In this document: piece after piece, positions 18,709 to 31,803 of the stretch
Layout of the letters: each line of letters starts with the position of its first letter
Numbering within the stretch: position 1 is the stretch's first letter
Origin: a virus
Virus record (IMG/VR): IMGVR_UViG_3300032893_000925
Span: 1 to 40,754 of that record
Reading direction: 5' to 3' (one strand)
Length of the DNA: 40,754 nt
Notes under the pieces: model-generated
Database searches by the model: none
Seen by the model: only the letters and a program-made list of their open reading frames with translations
What the model was told of the DNA's origin: nothing
Translations under genes and position numbers: made by a program

Positions 18709-20574
18709 TCACGCAACAGAAGCTATCCGTCTAGCATACGCCTGACGTTGCTTCCTGAGAATCTCTTCTACGAAAGCTTGGTCGCGTAAATCAAAATTCC
18801 AATAAGCAGGCCCGTAAGACAGAATATCCAGAAGATCAATGAGATACTTCTTCTGTCCATAGGCTTCTGCTTCTTCTTTGAAAACAGCAGAATTATCAAC
18901 ATCAAGCCAGAGTTCATGACGCTCCACAAGAGGAATGAAATTATCAATTCTTTCTTCTTTCGCTCCTGCCGTCTGCGGAGTCTTCAAGGGTTCAAAAACA
19001 ATTCCAGAAATCTCAGGACGCTCATGCTTGTGTTGTTCTACAAAGTAGTTCAAGTGATAGAGCAAGAACTTCTGTGCTGCCACCGCCTCTACATGTACCT
19101 TCCGAATCTTCCACTTTACAGCGAGTGTGAAGATTTTTGCTACAAACTTATCAATCGAGCACGCTTCAGCCCAAGGTTCTAGAAGATACACTCTCCTAGG
19201 ATCACGGCTAACGCCAGTAACAGCGATAGCATGACGACAACGGCCTCCCTTACCTGGCTCTCCAGTATTATGTTGTCCGCCATGATTCGGGTCCACCATC
19301 ATATATCGTTCAAGGTTCCGTGGATAAACATCCGGCTCTATATCCCCCTCCGCGACATGATGACGGAGGCAGATTCTATAGTTCTGAGGTACGGATACCG
19401 TATGTAGTCTTGTAAACTTGGGCTCCTTCGGGATAGCCAGGGCTGAGTAGTCCTTCTCCAGATGGTAGTACCGTAAGTCAGCGAGGTTGAACTTACTCTT
19501 GGAGGGATCAAGAGGATAGTTGAGAAATTGGCAGGAGAAATGATACGTACCCAGACGCCGCTTCCATCTAAGGAGCTTCTCTTTTGTGAAGGCTTCTGGG
19601 AATATAGGCTCGCCAAAGGGATGGAGAGAGCAGCATCCACCAAGGGCACTGTGCGTTGTCCATGAGAAGTAGGGTTCTTCTTTGCGGATGTGTGAATTAA
19701 GGTCATCAAGACTCCACCTATTTCCAACCACCATCTCATCAAAATCTCTCCCAGGATTTTCCGGATCACTATCCGTCGCGCCGACGAGAATCTGGTGATA
19801 GTCTATAGTATCCTGCATAACTATAGCACTCTTCCTCGCTTCTCGCCCTACGAGATCGTCTTCTACACATTTATTATAGTGACGACTCTGAAGTGCGGCA
19901 CCGACTCCGATAAAATCGAATGTTCCTTCACCTTGCCCCCGTCCAGCCGGTGTACGCCGTTGATGAAGTGAGTCGGCTGTCCACGTCTCTTTCTCGGTCG
20001 GAAGTATATCGAAGAAAAGCTCCCGAAAGAGTGAGTTATTCTCATAATGATTTGAAATTCTGGTTCCGAGCTTGAGGGCATTTTTGATCGTCTCACTTAC
20101 TAGCAAGATTCTCACGTCCTGAGAATGCGCTCGTTTCAACCATTTAATGTACAGGTCAGAGTAGCCGATGTTGGAGAAGTAGTCTTCCTCTCTGTGTCCG
20201 AAGGGAAGCGCCCACCAGATAGGAGCACACTCGCTATAGATAGTTGACTTATAGTGGTCACGAGGAATCTCAATCCCTTCCTTCAGTCCATCTTTCATGA
20301 CTGTCAGGCACATCTGCCGATGTAAGTTTTTAGCGGGATTCGGATTTCGTGAGAGCTTATTCTTACCCAGAACTACAACCGAGAACCAGTAAAGGTCCAT
20401 CAGGGAGTTCATTCTATAGGCAAGTTTCTTAGCCGTACCACTAAGTACGGCTACGTCAATCAGTTGGTAGTTAAGGATTGTGCTTCTAGGAACGTAAGTT
20501 TCGCCAAGAGAGCCTATTTGGAGAACGTCAATTGCGTTTAAGGCATCTCGTACTTGACGTTCTTCTAGGATCAC
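18709..20574 (-). CDS. Terminase large subunit, 621 aa
   Basis: This motor cuts and packages phage DNA into the procapsid. The N-terminal ATPase has a degenerate Walker A (IPRDHYKST, Lys-Ser-Thr kept) and a Walker B (KCVEDDLVG) after EGTFDFIGVGAALQSRHY. The C-terminal RNase H-type nuclease shows the metal-binding Asp in MMVDPNHGG, the VHVEAV strand, and the closing KEERIDNFIPLVERHELWLD segment. GTG start at 20574, overlapping the 36-aa ORF stop (GTGA), so translation is coupled. It leads the virion operon together with the putative small terminase. Confidence 0.9.
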   Translation of the reverse strand: MILEERQVRDALNAIDVLQIGSLGETYVPRSTILNYQLIDVAVLSGTAKKLAYRMNSLMDLYWFSVVVLGKNKLSRNPNPAKNLHRQMCLTVMKDGLKEGIEIPRDHYKSTIYSECAPIWWALPFGHREEDYFSNIGYSDLYIKWLKRAHSQDVRILLVSETIKNALKLGTRISNHYENNSLFRELFFDILPTEKETWTADSLHQRRTPAGRGQGEGTFDFIGVGAALQSRHYNKCVEDDLVGREARKSAIVMQDTIDYHQILVGATDSDPENPGRDFDEMVVGNRWSLDDLNSHIRKEEPYFSWTTHSALGGCCSLHPFGEPIFPEAFTKEKLLRWKRRLGTYHFSCQFLNYPLDPSKSKFNLADLRYYHLEKDYSALAIPKEPKFTRLHTVSVPQNYRICLRHHVAEGDIEPDVYPRNLERYMMVDPNHGGQHNTGEPGKGGRCRHAIAVTGVSRDPRRVYLLEPWAEACSIDKFVAKIFTLAVKWKIRKVHVEAVAAQKFLLYHLNYFVEQHKHERPEISGIVFEPLKTPQTAGAKEERIDNFIPLVERHELWLDVDNSAVFKEEAEAYGQKKYLIDLLDILSYGPAYWNFDLRDQAFVEEILRKQRQAYARRIASVA

Positions 20575-20681
20575 TGTTGTTCTACCTCGGCAGGCGGCCA
20601 GGCATCATCGCCGCTATCTAAAATTCCAAGTTCCCACAACATCCACAGCCATCTTAGGCGGAGCTTTTGAGAGAGAAGCAT
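20571..20681 (-). CDS. 36-aa ORF coupled between the two terminase genes
   Basis: A short frame exactly bridging the terminase genes. Its ATG overlaps the upstream stop as TAATG, AAGGAG lies six bases before the ATG, and its TGA overlaps the large terminase GTG start as GTGA. The product starts MLLSQKLRLRWLWMLWEL, with a hydrophobic, Trp-rich N-terminus and an acidic C-terminus. It may be a real small protein or simply a coupling device that delivers ribosomes to the GTG start. Confidence 0.55.
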   Translation of the reverse strand: MLLSQKLRLRWLWMLWELGILDSGDDAWPPAEVEQQ

Positions 20682-21403
20682 TACTGCTCCTTCTCGGAAG
20701 CAGGCTCAAGTTCTAGGAGTGCATCTTTCGATAAGGGAGTGGCTTCAAGCTCCGCAAGAGCTGCTTCCTGGTCGATGGCACTGAGTGTGTGACTGTTAGC
20801 GAAGACTACATTCGCATCGGAAGCAGCACTCTCTACACTTGAGCCGCCGGATGAGGCTTCTTTGAGTGCTTGAAGCACACTGTGGGCTTCTCTGTCAGAA
20901 GTTTCAAAATCGAAGAAGCTGACGGGCTTGACTTCGGTGCGAGAAACCTTTGGATAAGTTCCTTCACGGTCAAGGAGGTCTTGAGCGACGGCTACTTGAA
21001 GTTTCCTATCTGCGAGTCCTTGGGGCTGACTCATAAGCACGTTCCCAAGTGCTTGGAGCGCCGGTGGAAGCATCTGCGAGAGAATCTCTTTACGCTGCTC
21101 TCGAATAGTAGCGAGCTGCGCATCAGCATCTAGAATAATACCGTGAGTAATTTGCATCCGAGTGGAAAGGTAAGCAGGACTCTTTTTAATGTAACGGAGT
21201 CGCGGAACACTGATTGTAAGCATGGAAGCGATTGCTCTCTCAGGCAATCCTGCATTCTCCATGCGTACAATGAGTTCTAGCCGCTTCGATTTCTTGAAGG
21301 ACGCTCCCTTCCCCGGCATCGAAGAGAGCCTGAAAGCCCCATTCTTCGAGCGCAGCAGCGAGCCGCCGTAGTGAAGAGTTTGCGTCGCAGAAGAAGCCGC
21401 CAT
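20681..21403 (-). CDS. Putative terminase small subunit, 240 aa
   Basis: It precedes the large terminase. The N-terminal half has a basic, helix-turn-helix-like segment (KKSKRLELIVRMENAGLPER, then AIASMLTISVPRLRYIKK), followed by a long helical region, as in DNA-recognising small terminases. The C-terminus is Ser/Ala/Glu-rich and acidic. GAGGACC precedes the ATG. No direct homologue is recognised; the assignment rests on the putative HTH and location. Confidence 0.6.
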   Translation of the reverse strand: MAASSATQTLHYGGSLLRSKNGAFRLSSMPGKGASFKKSKRLELIVRMENAGLPERAIASMLTISVPRLRYIKKSPAYLSTRMQITHGIILDADAQLATIREQRKEILSQMLPPALQALGNVLMSQPQGLADRKLQVAVAQDLLDREGTYPKVSRTEVKPVSFFDFETSDREAHSVLQALKEASSGGSSVESAASDANVVFANSHTLSAIDQEAALAELEATPLSKDALLELEPASEKEQ

Positions 21404-21404
21404 C

Positions 21405-21641
21405 TTATAGGTCCTCTCTCATAGGAATAGCTATTCCACCTTCGGTGGAAGTGGCGGGGGCAACAGCCCCTGGATAGTCGGCCTTGGCAGGCCGCTGCTG
21501 AAAGAGCGTATCCTTATACTGTGCGAGGAAAGAAGAGAGCGCACGCCGCAACGGAGAAGCTTCGCCTTGCGCGTCCCGCGCCGTGGATGCTTGAGGCTCC
21601 GCCGTCTTGTAAAACGTGCGCTCTGAAGTGGATACACTCAT
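21405..21641 (-). CDS. First gene of the leftward operon, 78 aa, unknown
   Basis: Polar, Ala/Ser/Arg-rich 78-aa protein without a recognised domain. There is no ribosome site before its ATG. The -10 box of the leftward promoter ends only 11 bases upstream, so the mRNA is probably leaderless or nearly so. It ends one base before the next gene's ATG. Apparently the first translated product of the late operon. Confidence 0.55.
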   Translation of the reverse strand: MSVSTSERTFYKTAEPQASTARDAQGEASPLRRALSSFLAQYKDTLFQQRPAKADYPGAVAPATSTEGGIAIPMREDL

Positions 21642-21652
21642 GCTTGTTAAGA

Positions 21653-21682
21653 AGTATGAACCTCGGCGGGAGCCGCCGTCAA
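21653..21682 (-). promoter_or_regulatory. Leftward promoter for the virion operon
   Basis: On the minus strand, -35 TTGACG (21677-21682), an 18-base spacer and -10 CATACT (21653-21658). The spacer carries the perfect dyad GGCGG-CTC-CCGCC, part of which overlaps the -35 box. Initiation would fall about 5 bases upstream of the first ATG at 21641. Same design as the rightward promoters. Confidence 0.55.
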
Positions 21683-21896
21683 GCCCTTTCGTACTATTTT
21701 TCGCGCCAAAATTGCCTGTGCGCCGCCGTATACATCCCGCTGCGCGGAGCCGCCGCCGCCCCTTCGGTGCTATAACTATTTTCGAGGTTATAAATGCTTC
21801 TATCTATAACTAGGTGAATTGAAAATTCCTAAAAAATTTAGTGGGAATGCCCCCCTCCTTGAAGCAGTCGAGCGATTTTTTGAGGCGGACCCTCCA

Positions 21897-21943
21897 TACT
21901 CATAGGAGTACCTACTCACATGAGTACGTGAGTACATGAGTAC
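21897..21943. repeat. TGAGTAC direct-repeat array (iteron/operator-like)
   Basis: Three exact TGAGTAC copies at 21921, 21929 and 21937 (period eight), a fourth variant GGAGTAC at 21905, and inverted copies TACTCA at 21897 and 21913. The array ends just where the -35 box of the rightward promoter should be. This fits cooperative binding of a regulator that activates rightward transcription and could repress leftward transcription. Binding protein unknown. Confidence 0.6.
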
Positions 21944-21971
21944 GAGATACCCTACCGGGGTATTGTATACT
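21944..21971 (+). promoter_or_regulatory. Rightward early promoter with spacer dyad, no -35 box
   Basis: -10 box TATACT at 21966-21971. At the expected -35 position there is no TTGACA match, but the TGAGTAC array abuts it. The spacer holds the perfect inverted repeat ATACCC-TACCG-GGGTAT. A missing -35 with adjacent operators suggests an activator-dependent promoter. A TTGACA at 21985 has no matching -10 and was not used. Confidence 0.4.
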
Positions 21972-22042
21972 AAGTAGTAACGACTTGACAGGTATGAGAT
22001 AATCATCTTGGACGCAGTACGGTCTACGGAGGATTACCAGTT

Positions 22043-23486: not shown

Positions 23487-23515
23487 TTGACAACACAGCC
23501 CCGAAGGGGGATACT
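23487..23515 (+). promoter_or_regulatory. Early promoter with spacer dyad, leaderless
   Basis: Consensus -35 TTGACA (23487-23492), a 17-base spacer and -10 GATACT (23510-23515). The spacer contains the dyad CCCC-GAA-GGGG. The ATG at 23522 lies six bases after the -10 box, at the expected start point, so the transcript should be leaderless. A 10-base palindrome GTCATATGAC lies about 25 bases upstream of the -35 box. Confidence 0.6.
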
Positions 23516-27915: not shown

Positions 27916-28494
27916 ATGTATCTCTTTTATGAGAATCACAAGGCTGCCGATGGCAGTGTACTTGCGACGGATGTGATACACTCGTCTAATAAGAATGGAA
28001 TTGGGATTAACTGGCGCTCGTCTGATTCTCCTATGCACGAAGTGCTACTCCGTTTTTACAAGTCCATTCACACCGCGAATAGATCATTTAATTCTACCAC
28101 GAAAGTGTGGACATTTCTCGGCTCCAGTGGGAATAATTTAATCACACTCCTAAAAGCCTCTCCCGCGCTGGCTAGTATCGTGTACGAAGAGGTAGAAGAC
28201 CTCTCTGCACAGATAGCAAGTGGCGGCATTAAGCCACAGCGCAAGAAGATTGATCCCACGAAGTTCTTCTACAACTACACTACTGTAGCCGCTCCTGCTT
28301 TAACGCGCTCTAGTGTGATTGCGCCACTATCGAAGCTGCTGGAAGTAGAAGCGGATTGGCTTGAGAAAGCGGAGAAGACTGAGGCGAAGAAGATTTACCG
28401 GAAAGCTTGTTTGAAGTATCATCCAGACAGGAATAACGGTGATGGGTCAAGAATGAGTGATTTGAATATGTACTGGAGTGTGTATTATGCCTAA
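27916..28494 (+). CDS. J-domain protein with the J-domain at the C-terminus, 192 aa
   Basis: Residues about 145-192 form a J-domain: helix II KKIYRKACLKYHPDRNNGDG with the HPD signature at 169-171, then the start of helix III (MSDLNMYWSVYYA). J-domains stimulate the ATPase of DnaK/Hsp70. The N-terminal 140 residues (YLFYENHKAADGSV; KVWTFLGSSGN) are not recognised and may bind a client. There is no Gly/Phe region and no zinc domain, so it is not DnaJ itself. AGGAGG upstream. A plausible role is recruiting the host chaperone to a phage replication or takeover protein, as other phages do, but this is inference. Confidence 0.75.
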   Translation: MYLFYENHKAADGSVLATDVIHSSNKNGIGINWRSSDSPMHEVLLRFYKSIHTANRSFNSTTKVWTFLGSSGNNLITLLKASPALASIVYEEVEDLSAQIASGGIKPQRKKIDPTKFFYNYTTVAAPALTRSSVIAPLSKLLEVEADWLEKAEKTEAKKIYRKACLKYHPDRNNGDGSRMSDLNMYWSVYYA

Positions 28495-29585: not shown

Positions 29586-30735
29586 CTTCACTTCCAAAGC
29601 CTCTGGCTTAGCGCCACCGCTTCAAGTACAGGTAGGAAAACTTACTCACAAGATGCTGATTCTAGGTTTTCCTGCTTTCTTCGAGCGTGTGGATGAAGGT
29701 CCGGTGCTACGTACATTCTACTTCAAGCCCACAGAGGGAGCACTCTTCGCAAAGATTCTCTCGAAAGAGGAGGAACTTGCGGGTACTCTCTCTGTGGAAT
29801 CTGTACGCATAGAACGTAGCACCGGATTTGTTTCAATCTCCGTGCCACGAGAAGATCGACAACTTATACGATTTGACTCGTGCCTCCATCACATGCTCTC
29901 CGCTCCAGAAGTGCGTGAGATGCAGCTCCCGCTGATGCTTGGTCAATCTCCCAACGGCGAATACATTTTCATTGATCTCGCAGCGCAGCCGCATCTGCTA
30001 GTAGCAGGCACCACTGGTAGCGGCAAGAGCATTTTCACAGCGCAAGTTATATGTTCGCTTGCGCTGTTCCGTTCGCCGCTGGAGTTATCTTTCACTCTTG
30101 TGGATACGAAGCAGCTTGATCTTGTGCTATTTGAAGGACTGAAGCATGTTTCCAGTGTGATCCGTACTGTGGATGATTTAAGAACCACACTCTCAAAGGC
30201 TCTAGCCGAAATTCGTAGAAGAACCGAACTAATGAGTGGTCTAGCACGCAATATCCGTGACTGGAACATTGGAAGATTCGGTCAGAAGTTGAAGTACAAG
30301 GTCATTGTAATAGACGAACTCGCGGATGTTCTGGAGCAGGATGAAGTAATGTGGGCAGGAATTCCTAAGAAGGATCGTCCTACTTCCATTGCGACACTCC
30401 TGAAACAGATTGCACAAATCAGCCGTGCGGCGGGTATTCATATTCTCGCTGCTACACAACGACCTTCAGTTAAAACCATCGCCGGTGATACGAAGGCAAA
30501 TTTCCCCTCTCGCATTTGCTTCAAGCTCGCTACTCAAGCGGATTCTCGCGTGGTACTAGACGAGAACGGCGCAGAGAAGCTACTTGGACAAGGGGATTTC
30601 TTGTATAAGATCGCCGGGTCTGACACTGTGAAACGTGCTCATAGTGCTTTCGTAGCAATGGAAGATATTGCTATGATTATGGCACAGCATGAGGAGATAA
30701 GGAGAACCTATGAGCGACAGCCCAATCTACTGTGA
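29569..30735 (+). CDS. FtsK/SpoIIIE-type DNA translocase, 388 aa
   Basis: The GTG at 29569 has AAAGGAG seven bases upstream; a TTG two codons earlier is less likely. It contains the FtsK alpha/beta segment (EGPVLRTFYFKPTEGA; SVRIERSTGFVSISVPRED) and the motor: Walker A AGTTGSGKS (146-154), Walker B VIVIDE (245-250), an arginine-rich RRRTELM helix, ISRAAGIHILAATQRPSV and KANFPSRICFKLATQADSR. It lacks the membrane domain and the gamma winged-helix that directs FtsK to KOPS. It is a soluble motor that could move double-stranded DNA. Its role in the phage (DNA segregation, transfer or anti-defence) is unknown. It forms a co-translated pair with the vWA protein. Confidence 0.88.
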   Translation: MGNALNFTSKASGLAPPLQVQVGKLTHKMLILGFPAFFERVDEGPVLRTFYFKPTEGALFAKILSKEEELAGTLSVESVRIERSTGFVSISVPREDRQLIRFDSCLHHMLSAPEVREMQLPLMLGQSPNGEYIFIDLAAQPHLLVAGTTGSGKSIFTAQVICSLALFRSPLELSFTLVDTKQLDLVLFEGLKHVSSVIRTVDDLRTTLSKALAEIRRRTELMSGLARNIRDWNIGRFGQKLKYKVIVIDELADVLEQDEVMWAGIPKKDRPTSIATLLKQIAQISRAAGIHILAATQRPSVKTIAGDTKANFPSRICFKLATQADSRVVLDENGAEKLLGQGDFLYKIAGSDTVKRAHSAFVAMEDIAMIMAQHEEIRRTYERQPNLL

Positions 30736-31003
30736 CAATCCGCGGTGCAACGTAGTTATAGGGACGTTGCGCACATACCCAAGAGGACCATACGGACAGA
30801 ATCCTCCAGATGAAACCTTCAGTAATGATGCAGTTGAAGGTGCGGAGAATCGGATGTACTGCTCTGAAGAATGCCTCTATGAGACTGAAGAAGCTCCGCT
30901 GGAAGAGGAAGAGGAAGAGGAAGAAGATGAGGAAGACTGGACGCCCTCCGATGGGACAAGCTCCGAAGATAATTTTCCTGAACCATCTTCAGACGGCATT
31001 TAA
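30710..31003 (+). CDS. Zinc-binding protein with acidic tail, 97 aa
   Basis: AGGAG precedes the ATG, which lies inside the end of the translocase gene. Cys pairs YCDNPRC (N-terminus) and YCSEEC (about 50-55) form a likely zinc site. The C-terminal 40 residues contain a run of about ten acidic residues (EEEEEEEEDEEDW) and Ser/Asp-rich sequence, a DNA-mimic or protein-interaction type tail. Function unknown; the 26-base overlap ties it to the translocase. Confidence 0.6.
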   Translation: MSDSPIYCDNPRCNVVIGTLRTYPRGPYGQNPPDETFSNDAVEGAENRMYCSEECLYETEEAPLEEEEEEEEDEEDWTPSDGTSSEDNFPEPSSDGI

Positions 31004-31023
31004 CATTCTCAAGCAGTTCCACT

Positions 31024-31094
31024 CCTCCAGCTTGTGCAGCGGCAGCCACTCAGACATTAAAGAGTGTACCTGTGAGATTGCACAAGCATGGAGG
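31024..31094 (+). other. Intergenic rod hairpin, 15-bp stem with one bulge
   Basis: CCTCCAGCTTGTGCA (31024-31038) pairs with TGCACAAGCATGGAGG (31079-31094) with a single bulged A. Inside, CACTC/GAGTG forms a second stem. It stands 20 bases after the stop at 31003 and before the hairpin at 31120. No known RNA family recognised. Confidence 0.55.
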
Positions 31095-31444: not shown

Positions 31445-31473
31445 TTGACACCCCCCTCGGCGGGTCGTATACT
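31445..31473 (+). promoter_or_regulatory. Strong consensus early promoter
   Basis: -35 TTGACA (31445-31450), a 17-base spacer and -10 TATACT (31468-31473). The spacer, CCCCCCTCGGCGGGTCG, is GC-rich with an imperfect CCC/GGG dyad like its siblings. The ATG at 31483 is nine bases after the -10 box and has no ribosome site. Confidence 0.65.
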
Positions 31474-31482
31474 ACCCGTGTT

Positions 31483-31803
31483 ATGCCCCTAGACGCTTTC
31501 GGAACTGTCGTGACTACCATTCGAGTGTGGCGAGCACAGATGAACGCGCTAAAGCAGCTCCCACCTGAAATATCCCAATCCGCTCTAGTACGTGTACTAC
31601 TGCACTTATACCTGGAAGGAAAGATTCCAGAAGCATATGATCTTGTCTTGAAAGAGACAGCTAGAGCGCACGTTGCGAAAGAGAACGGGTATCTCCAAAG
31701 GAGAGAAAGAGATAAAAATGGCAGATCAAAACCCTCCACAGGAACAGCAGGAGCCAACGGAGCAACCGCCGCAGGAGCATCATGTAAGCTCCCAAGTGTG
31801 TGA
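31483..31803 (+). CDS. Ribbon-helix-helix-like regulator, 106 aa, near-leaderless
   Basis: The open frame extends 50 codons further upstream, but those codons overlap a terminator and the promoter, so the ATG at 31483 is the start. Residues 11-50 (TTIRVWRAQMNALKQLPPEI, then SQSALVRVLLHLYLEGK) show a beta-strand followed by two helices, as in small ribbon-helix-helix DNA-binding proteins that bind operators as dimers. The C-terminus is basic and Gly/Ala-rich. As first gene of its unit with a GC-rich dyad in the promoter, autoregulation is plausible. It overlaps the next gene. Confidence 0.5.
   Translation: MPLDAFGTVVTTIRVWRAQMNALKQLPPEISQSALVRVLLHLYLEGKIPEAYDLVLKETARAHVAKENGYLQRRERDKNGRSKPSTGTAGANGATAAGASCKLPSV

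Follow-up and report, generated by a model that had tools for sequence, protein, structure and literature searches.

An octamer-pitch box array, probably the tandem operator of a phage regulator, next to a conserved element upstream of terS in an uncultured tailed phage

The window, which is the whole stretch of DNA analysed here (40,754 bp), comes from an uncultured tailed phage in which the late and structural genes, including terL (PHROG 38) and the major head protein, lie on the minus strand and the early genes, including those for FtsK-like, PD-(D/E)XK and AAA_24 proteins, lie on the plus strand, with the two arms diverging at ~21.7-22.0 kb. A search with TerL recovered 80 related contigs at TerL identities of 56-80%, database phages share merely ~22-26% TerL identity with the window, and the only genome match was to a metagenome bin labelled Sulfuriferula. 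In what follows W is the window, G001-G020 are the colinear relatives that were compared, and L-numbers denote further contigs, related ones unless stated otherwise. Away from the divergence point, the plus strand encodes at 27916-28494 a conserved protein of 192 aa in which a DnaJ-like HPD motif (YHPDRNNGDGSRMSDLN) lies close to the C-terminus. The interval between the arms is, as originally predicted, a divergent control region, which we call the hub, and its features are as follows.

18709..20574, minus strand: large terminase (terL), PHROG 38, E 2e-45
20681..21403, minus strand: small terminase (terS) candidate, 240 aa, with an N-terminal HTH, from PHROG 2538 and its place
21405..21641, minus strand: small late-side ORF, 78 aa, with homologues in two relatives
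21653..21682, minus strand: late promoter candidate TTGACG-18-CATACT, with a GGCGG-CTC-CCGCC dyad at the -35/spacer junction
21831..21888, minus strand (read towards terS): bipartite core CCGCCTCAAAAAAT-N~20-GGGGGG-N6-CACTAAATTTTTT, from a 20-phage alignment
21897..21944, no strand: octamer-pitch box array, six ACTC/GAGT tetramers with 4-bp spacers
21898-21901: box 1, ACTC
21906-21909: box 2, GAGT
21914-21917: box 3, ACTC
21922-21925: box 4, GAGT
21930-21933: box 5, GAGT
21938-21941: box 6, GAGT
21947..21963, no strand: dyad ATACCC-TACCG-GGGTAT, from the window sequence alone
21962..21991, minus strand (facing the array and the late genes): promoter-like CTGTCA-18-TACAAT, weak, 9/12
21968..21979, no strand: dyad TACT-AAGT-AGTA, a member of a family-wide TTTACT-N4-AGTAAA operator-like set
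21985..22003, plus strand: early promoter candidate, TTGACA followed by the extended -10 TGAGATAAT (21995-22003), from a three-phage comparison
22043..22531, plus strand: first early gene, 162 aa, with GGAGG at 22028-22032

The array itself is real. Its six boxes keep one strict 8-bp register from 21898 to 21941 in the orientation ><><<<, and it is the window's sole run of three or more boxes; 200 block shuffles gave no run longer than 3. The octamer-spaced TGAGTAC repeats described in the original prediction are present at 21921, 21929 and 21937, with inverted copies starting at 21897 and 21913, and from its letters the array does have the look of the regulator-binding platform that had been proposed. 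At least four contiguous short boxes in one register, with orientation free, is the arrangement of RHH tandem-box sites of the ParG/omega type, and the array has it.

What the array would act upon is less as first supposed. The original prediction placed an activator on the array, recruiting RNA polymerase to a promoter that lacks a -35 box and has its -10 at TATACT, 21966-21971. Several of its observations hold, in that the array ends at 21943/44 and abuts the -35 position, a TTGACA-like hexamer is absent 16-18 bp upstream of TATACT, and the spacer dyad ATACCC-TACCG-GGGTAT is present nearby. The assignment of TATACT as a -10 box does not hold, since G005, whose first early gene is shared with W, has GTTACT at the aligned position, a sequence that does not make a -10; a sigma-70 -10 hexamer would be conserved in relatives sharing that gene, and this one is not. 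A plus-strand promoter search returned none at 21966-21971. Read on the opposite, minus strand, these bases form the TACAAT of the CTGTCA-18-TACAAT site. TATACT also overlaps the conserved dyad TACT-AAGT-AGTA, forming its left half, and TACT-N4-AGTA occurs at 0.65/kb on the core's early side versus 0.018/kb elsewhere (~36-fold), with the 4-bp gap only, and this enrichment and gap dependence suggest that TATACT is, in part at least, one half of an operator. The early element that is shared, on sequence comparison, is instead the extended -10 at 21995-22003, which reads TGAGATAAT in W, TGCTATACT in G005 and TGCTATCAT in G006 in the same layout; between W and G005, ACTAAGTAGTAA, TTGACAG and the extended -10 are conserved. 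Taken together, we regard activation of a promoter at 21966-21971 as improbable.

Further elements accompany the hub promoters. Multiple GTTTACT-N4-AGTAAAC copies lie 50-330 bp on the core's early side in L163, L127, L165 and others, and these are probably operators of another phage repressor. On the late side, a promoter candidate of the form TTGAC[AG]-17/18-TAnnnT is found 190-290 bp beyond the core in most relatives, and upstream of it, on the minus strand at 21700-21760 in the window and also in L158, L156, L111 and G007, are a semi-conserved GTATAC and ATTTT-GGC-AAAAAT, possibly a late activator site. In G007 an HNH-like ORF (homing endonuclease type) lies between core and late promoter at ~30,540-31,050 in TerL orientation, and the core is kept. 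Self-complementary promoter spacers (stem of at least 4) occur in 15 of 40 non-coding TTGAC[AG] promoters across 14 genomes versus 5.4 expected from shuffled spacers, and inside long ORFs in 5 of 32 versus 3.0 expected; the stems are 4-6 bp with loops of 3-6 nt, and their sequences differ even within one phage. Such promoters were found in relatives G001-G017 and at two places in the window:

21682-21653, minus strand: promoter with self-complementary spacer
23487-23515, plus strand: promoter with self-complementary spacer

In most relatives short tandem boxes flank the core on its early side, and their spelling differs between phages (ACTC, TACC, TGCT) while the pitch stays near 8-9 bp. The clearest groups are these.

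ACTC boxes at 8 bp: W, L140, L163, L156, L158 and L179
TACC boxes at 8 bp: G005 and L118, lag-8 z 4.9 and 4.1
9-bp boxes: L131, L165, L148 and L157, lag-9 z 3.1-8.1 for L131, L165 and L148

In the remaining relatives the boxes are at 7, 15, 16 or 18 bp, or are unclear, and a clear tandem array is absent from L161, L110 and L159. Across 31 loci, which include a few mutual close relatives, the 150 bp next to the core hold ACTC/GAGT pairs spaced by 8 bp at 63 times, and pairs spaced by 16 bp at 50 times, the density found elsewhere, with no enrichment beside the core at 10, 12, 13 or 17 bp in the same loci. The expectation that the repeats would be conserved thus stands for box position and pitch and falls for spelling, which varies between relatives. 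Beyond the family, the suggested search of other, public phages for the array gave no convincing users. A scan with TGAGTACNTGAGTAC led to one unrelated array, on contig L108 (4781-5025), where a TTGAGTAC octamer array lies immediately next to the stop codon of a CopG/RHH-like gene. A wider GAGT-octamer scan returned mostly simple repeats, and the neighbouring gene that had looked most like an RHH gene, on L263, turned out to encode SpoIIID; we therefore leave L108 out of the evidence.

The most conserved element of the control region, which like the late promoter at 21682-21653 did not figure in the original prediction, is the core, ~58 bp composed of CCGCCTCAAAAAAT, ~20 variable bp, GGGGGG, ~8 bp and ACTAAATTTTTT, so that the modules run towards terS in the order short tandem boxes, CCGCCTCAAAAAAT, G run and ACTAAATTTTTT. 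It is present in at least 25 distinct relatives recovered via the large terminase, and nearly all relatives have it. CCGCCT and the G run stay 32-36 bp apart despite the variable sequence between; the G run is lost in L111 and the T tract has diverged in L185. An RNA element was considered and set aside, as an Rfam match is absent, the core has only a 5-bp stem and compensatory changes are absent.

Across the relatives the core lies 374-1,209 bp upstream of terS, and as a conserved non-coding site at this canonical place it invites the reading that array and core are a packaging initiation site (cos or pac), with the core cut and the boxes bound by TerS, as at cosB in lambda. The core is conserved together with terS-terL down to 59% TerL identity, and its G run beside a T run recalls GC-rich cos sequences. 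The terS candidate is itself conserved in all relatives, with 6 of 22 homologues matching PHROG 2538 (terminase small subunit; best 7e-5), and its HTH is confident in a structure model; fold searches with TerS gave weak matches only. The adjacent repeats, however, do not co-vary with TerS: L140 and L131 have near-identical TerS HTHs and different boxes, whereas the window and L179 share boxes with TerS proteins that are only 34-35% identical and have very different HTHs. Box type is therefore independent of the TerS HTH, TerS is unlikely to read the boxes, and it was rejected as the array binder. Contig ends, examined as a sign of cos, show no enrichment inside the core (0 among ~80 contigs), and the contigs L120, L166 and L149, which begin 1, 16 and 44 bp from it on the early side, are about what a uniform spread would give. 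The assemblies of three near-complete relatives are circular and break at other positions, which does not speak for cos and permits pac or terminal repeats. A packaging site comprising both array and core is possible but on balance rather unlikely; for the core taken separately, as a cis site independent of box type, a packaging start (cos/pac) is the most likely function, with a replication origin as the main alternative.

An origin comprising array and core, in which the boxes would serve as iterons and the A/T tracts would unwind, is suggested by the tandem repeats adjoining A-tracts that are spaced by about four helical turns, and by the T-A skew, whose turning point is no more than 200 bp from the core in W, G001, G002, G004, G005 and G006. 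The skew turn also marks the gene-strand switch, and so is confounded and not independent evidence for an origin. GC-skew minima are 1-5 kb off in most genomes, the 8-9 bp pitch is unlike that of typical iterons, which are ~20 bp, and neither a replication initiator nor a DnaA box was seen, so that we consider this reading unlikely.

For a reader of the boxes, the original prediction had offered an RHH-like protein as candidate regulator, and this is the best candidate that we found, being present in every relative with an early arm and having its own promoter.

31483-31803 (31445..31803 with its promoter), plus strand: candidate array-binding protein, RHH-like, 106 aa
31445-31473, plus strand: its promoter TTGACA-17-TATACT, 9 bp before the ATG

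The protein occurs in 12 of 12 genomes with an early arm (the window and 11 relatives), with the consensus TVATTxRILxxQ...SALVRVLLxLY. Only one of these 12 members matches the Pfam RHH_1 profile, at E 0.049, so the RHH label rests mainly on the sequence pattern, and a single-sequence structure model (pLDDT 59) was too poor for use. In 8 of the 12 a strong -10 stands 6-9 nt ahead of the ATG, indicating that the mRNA would be leaderless, for which lambda cI transcribed from PRM is a known parallel. The window has no second array at the gene's own promoter, and comparison of the strand residues of the protein with box type gave no clear match. The RHH-like protein may bind the boxes, though a host protein could do so instead. 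Given the geometry of the boxes, which is as in parH and in pSM19035 parS, and the conservation of the RHH-like gene, one might suppose a phage-plasmid partition site, that is, a ParG/omega-like centromere bound by this protein, but no ParA-type ATPase was found beside the gene among the early-arm ORFs inspected, the window being incomplete, and the genes next to it encode an FtsK-like motor and a vWA-like protein; we regard partition as highly improbable.

The array is probably the tandem operator of a phage regulator, adjoining a conserved site whose likely role is packaging (or replication). Our leading explanation, which we hold tentatively and with slightly less than even weight, is that a small regulator encoded by the phage, for which the RHH-like protein is the likeliest candidate, binds this tandem-box operator and times or silences transcription at the hub, with the core as a separate cis site. 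The evidence for it is the set of six boxes in perfect 8-bp register and mixed orientation, unique in the window, the matching geometry beside the same core in relatives, the constant presence of the RHH-like protein with the early arm, and the clustering of TACT-N4-AGTA dyads in the array region. Regulator dimers would bind the six 4-bp boxes cooperatively, side by side and in a single helix register, in the way that RHH ParB proteins occupy four or more adjoining boxes, covering ~48 bp between the early promoter and the core, and the resulting platform would block or time both early and late transcription. Binding of the boxes by the RHH-like protein, the direction of regulation (activating, repressing or architectural) and the role of the core are matters that we infer, and our confidence in the overall picture is moderate. 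An improbable variant is that array and core form one lineage-specific composite, in which exchangeable boxes act as a code that marks a conserved cut or origin sequence and is read by a fast-changing phage protein; if true, this would be a specificity or incompatibility code by which each phage type admits no DNA but its own to packaging or replication.

To our knowledge this is the first description of control-region anatomy for this uncultured soil/peat phage lineage, in which a conserved ~58-bp core adjoins an array that is constant in geometry and variable in sequence among close relatives. This anatomy yields a clear prediction of the reader protein, and it provides natural variants for testing specificity switches in tandem-box DNA recognition.

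The array resembles in its tetramer-box geometry the ParG-parH system, for which the primary papers reportedly describe ACTC boxes with 4-bp spacers. On plasmid TP228 the parFG operator consists of degenerate tetramer boxes separated by AT-rich spacers, and the small RHH dimer that binds them, ParG, both represses transcription and marks the centromere (PMC7308502). The phage locus differs in that a ParF-like ATPase was not identified among the early-arm ORFs inspected, and in that its boxes adjoin a conserved core upstream of terS, change spelling between close relatives and have a putative reader. Contiguous short boxes in mixed orientation are also shared with the omega/ParB parS sites of pSM19035, where at least four are needed for function (PMC9499535), although those are heptads in a partition module and ours are octamers; the likeness that we see is one of geometry. 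With lambda cos (cosN-cosB) and pac sites the locus shares a conserved cis site shortly upstream of terS with adjoining repeats, but here the box type does not follow TerS. The Arc/Mnt-type RHH phage repressors are small regulators at divergent promoters, and while each has one operator in place of a six-box array, the candidate RHH-like regulator at the divergent promoters of this phage would be like them in kind.
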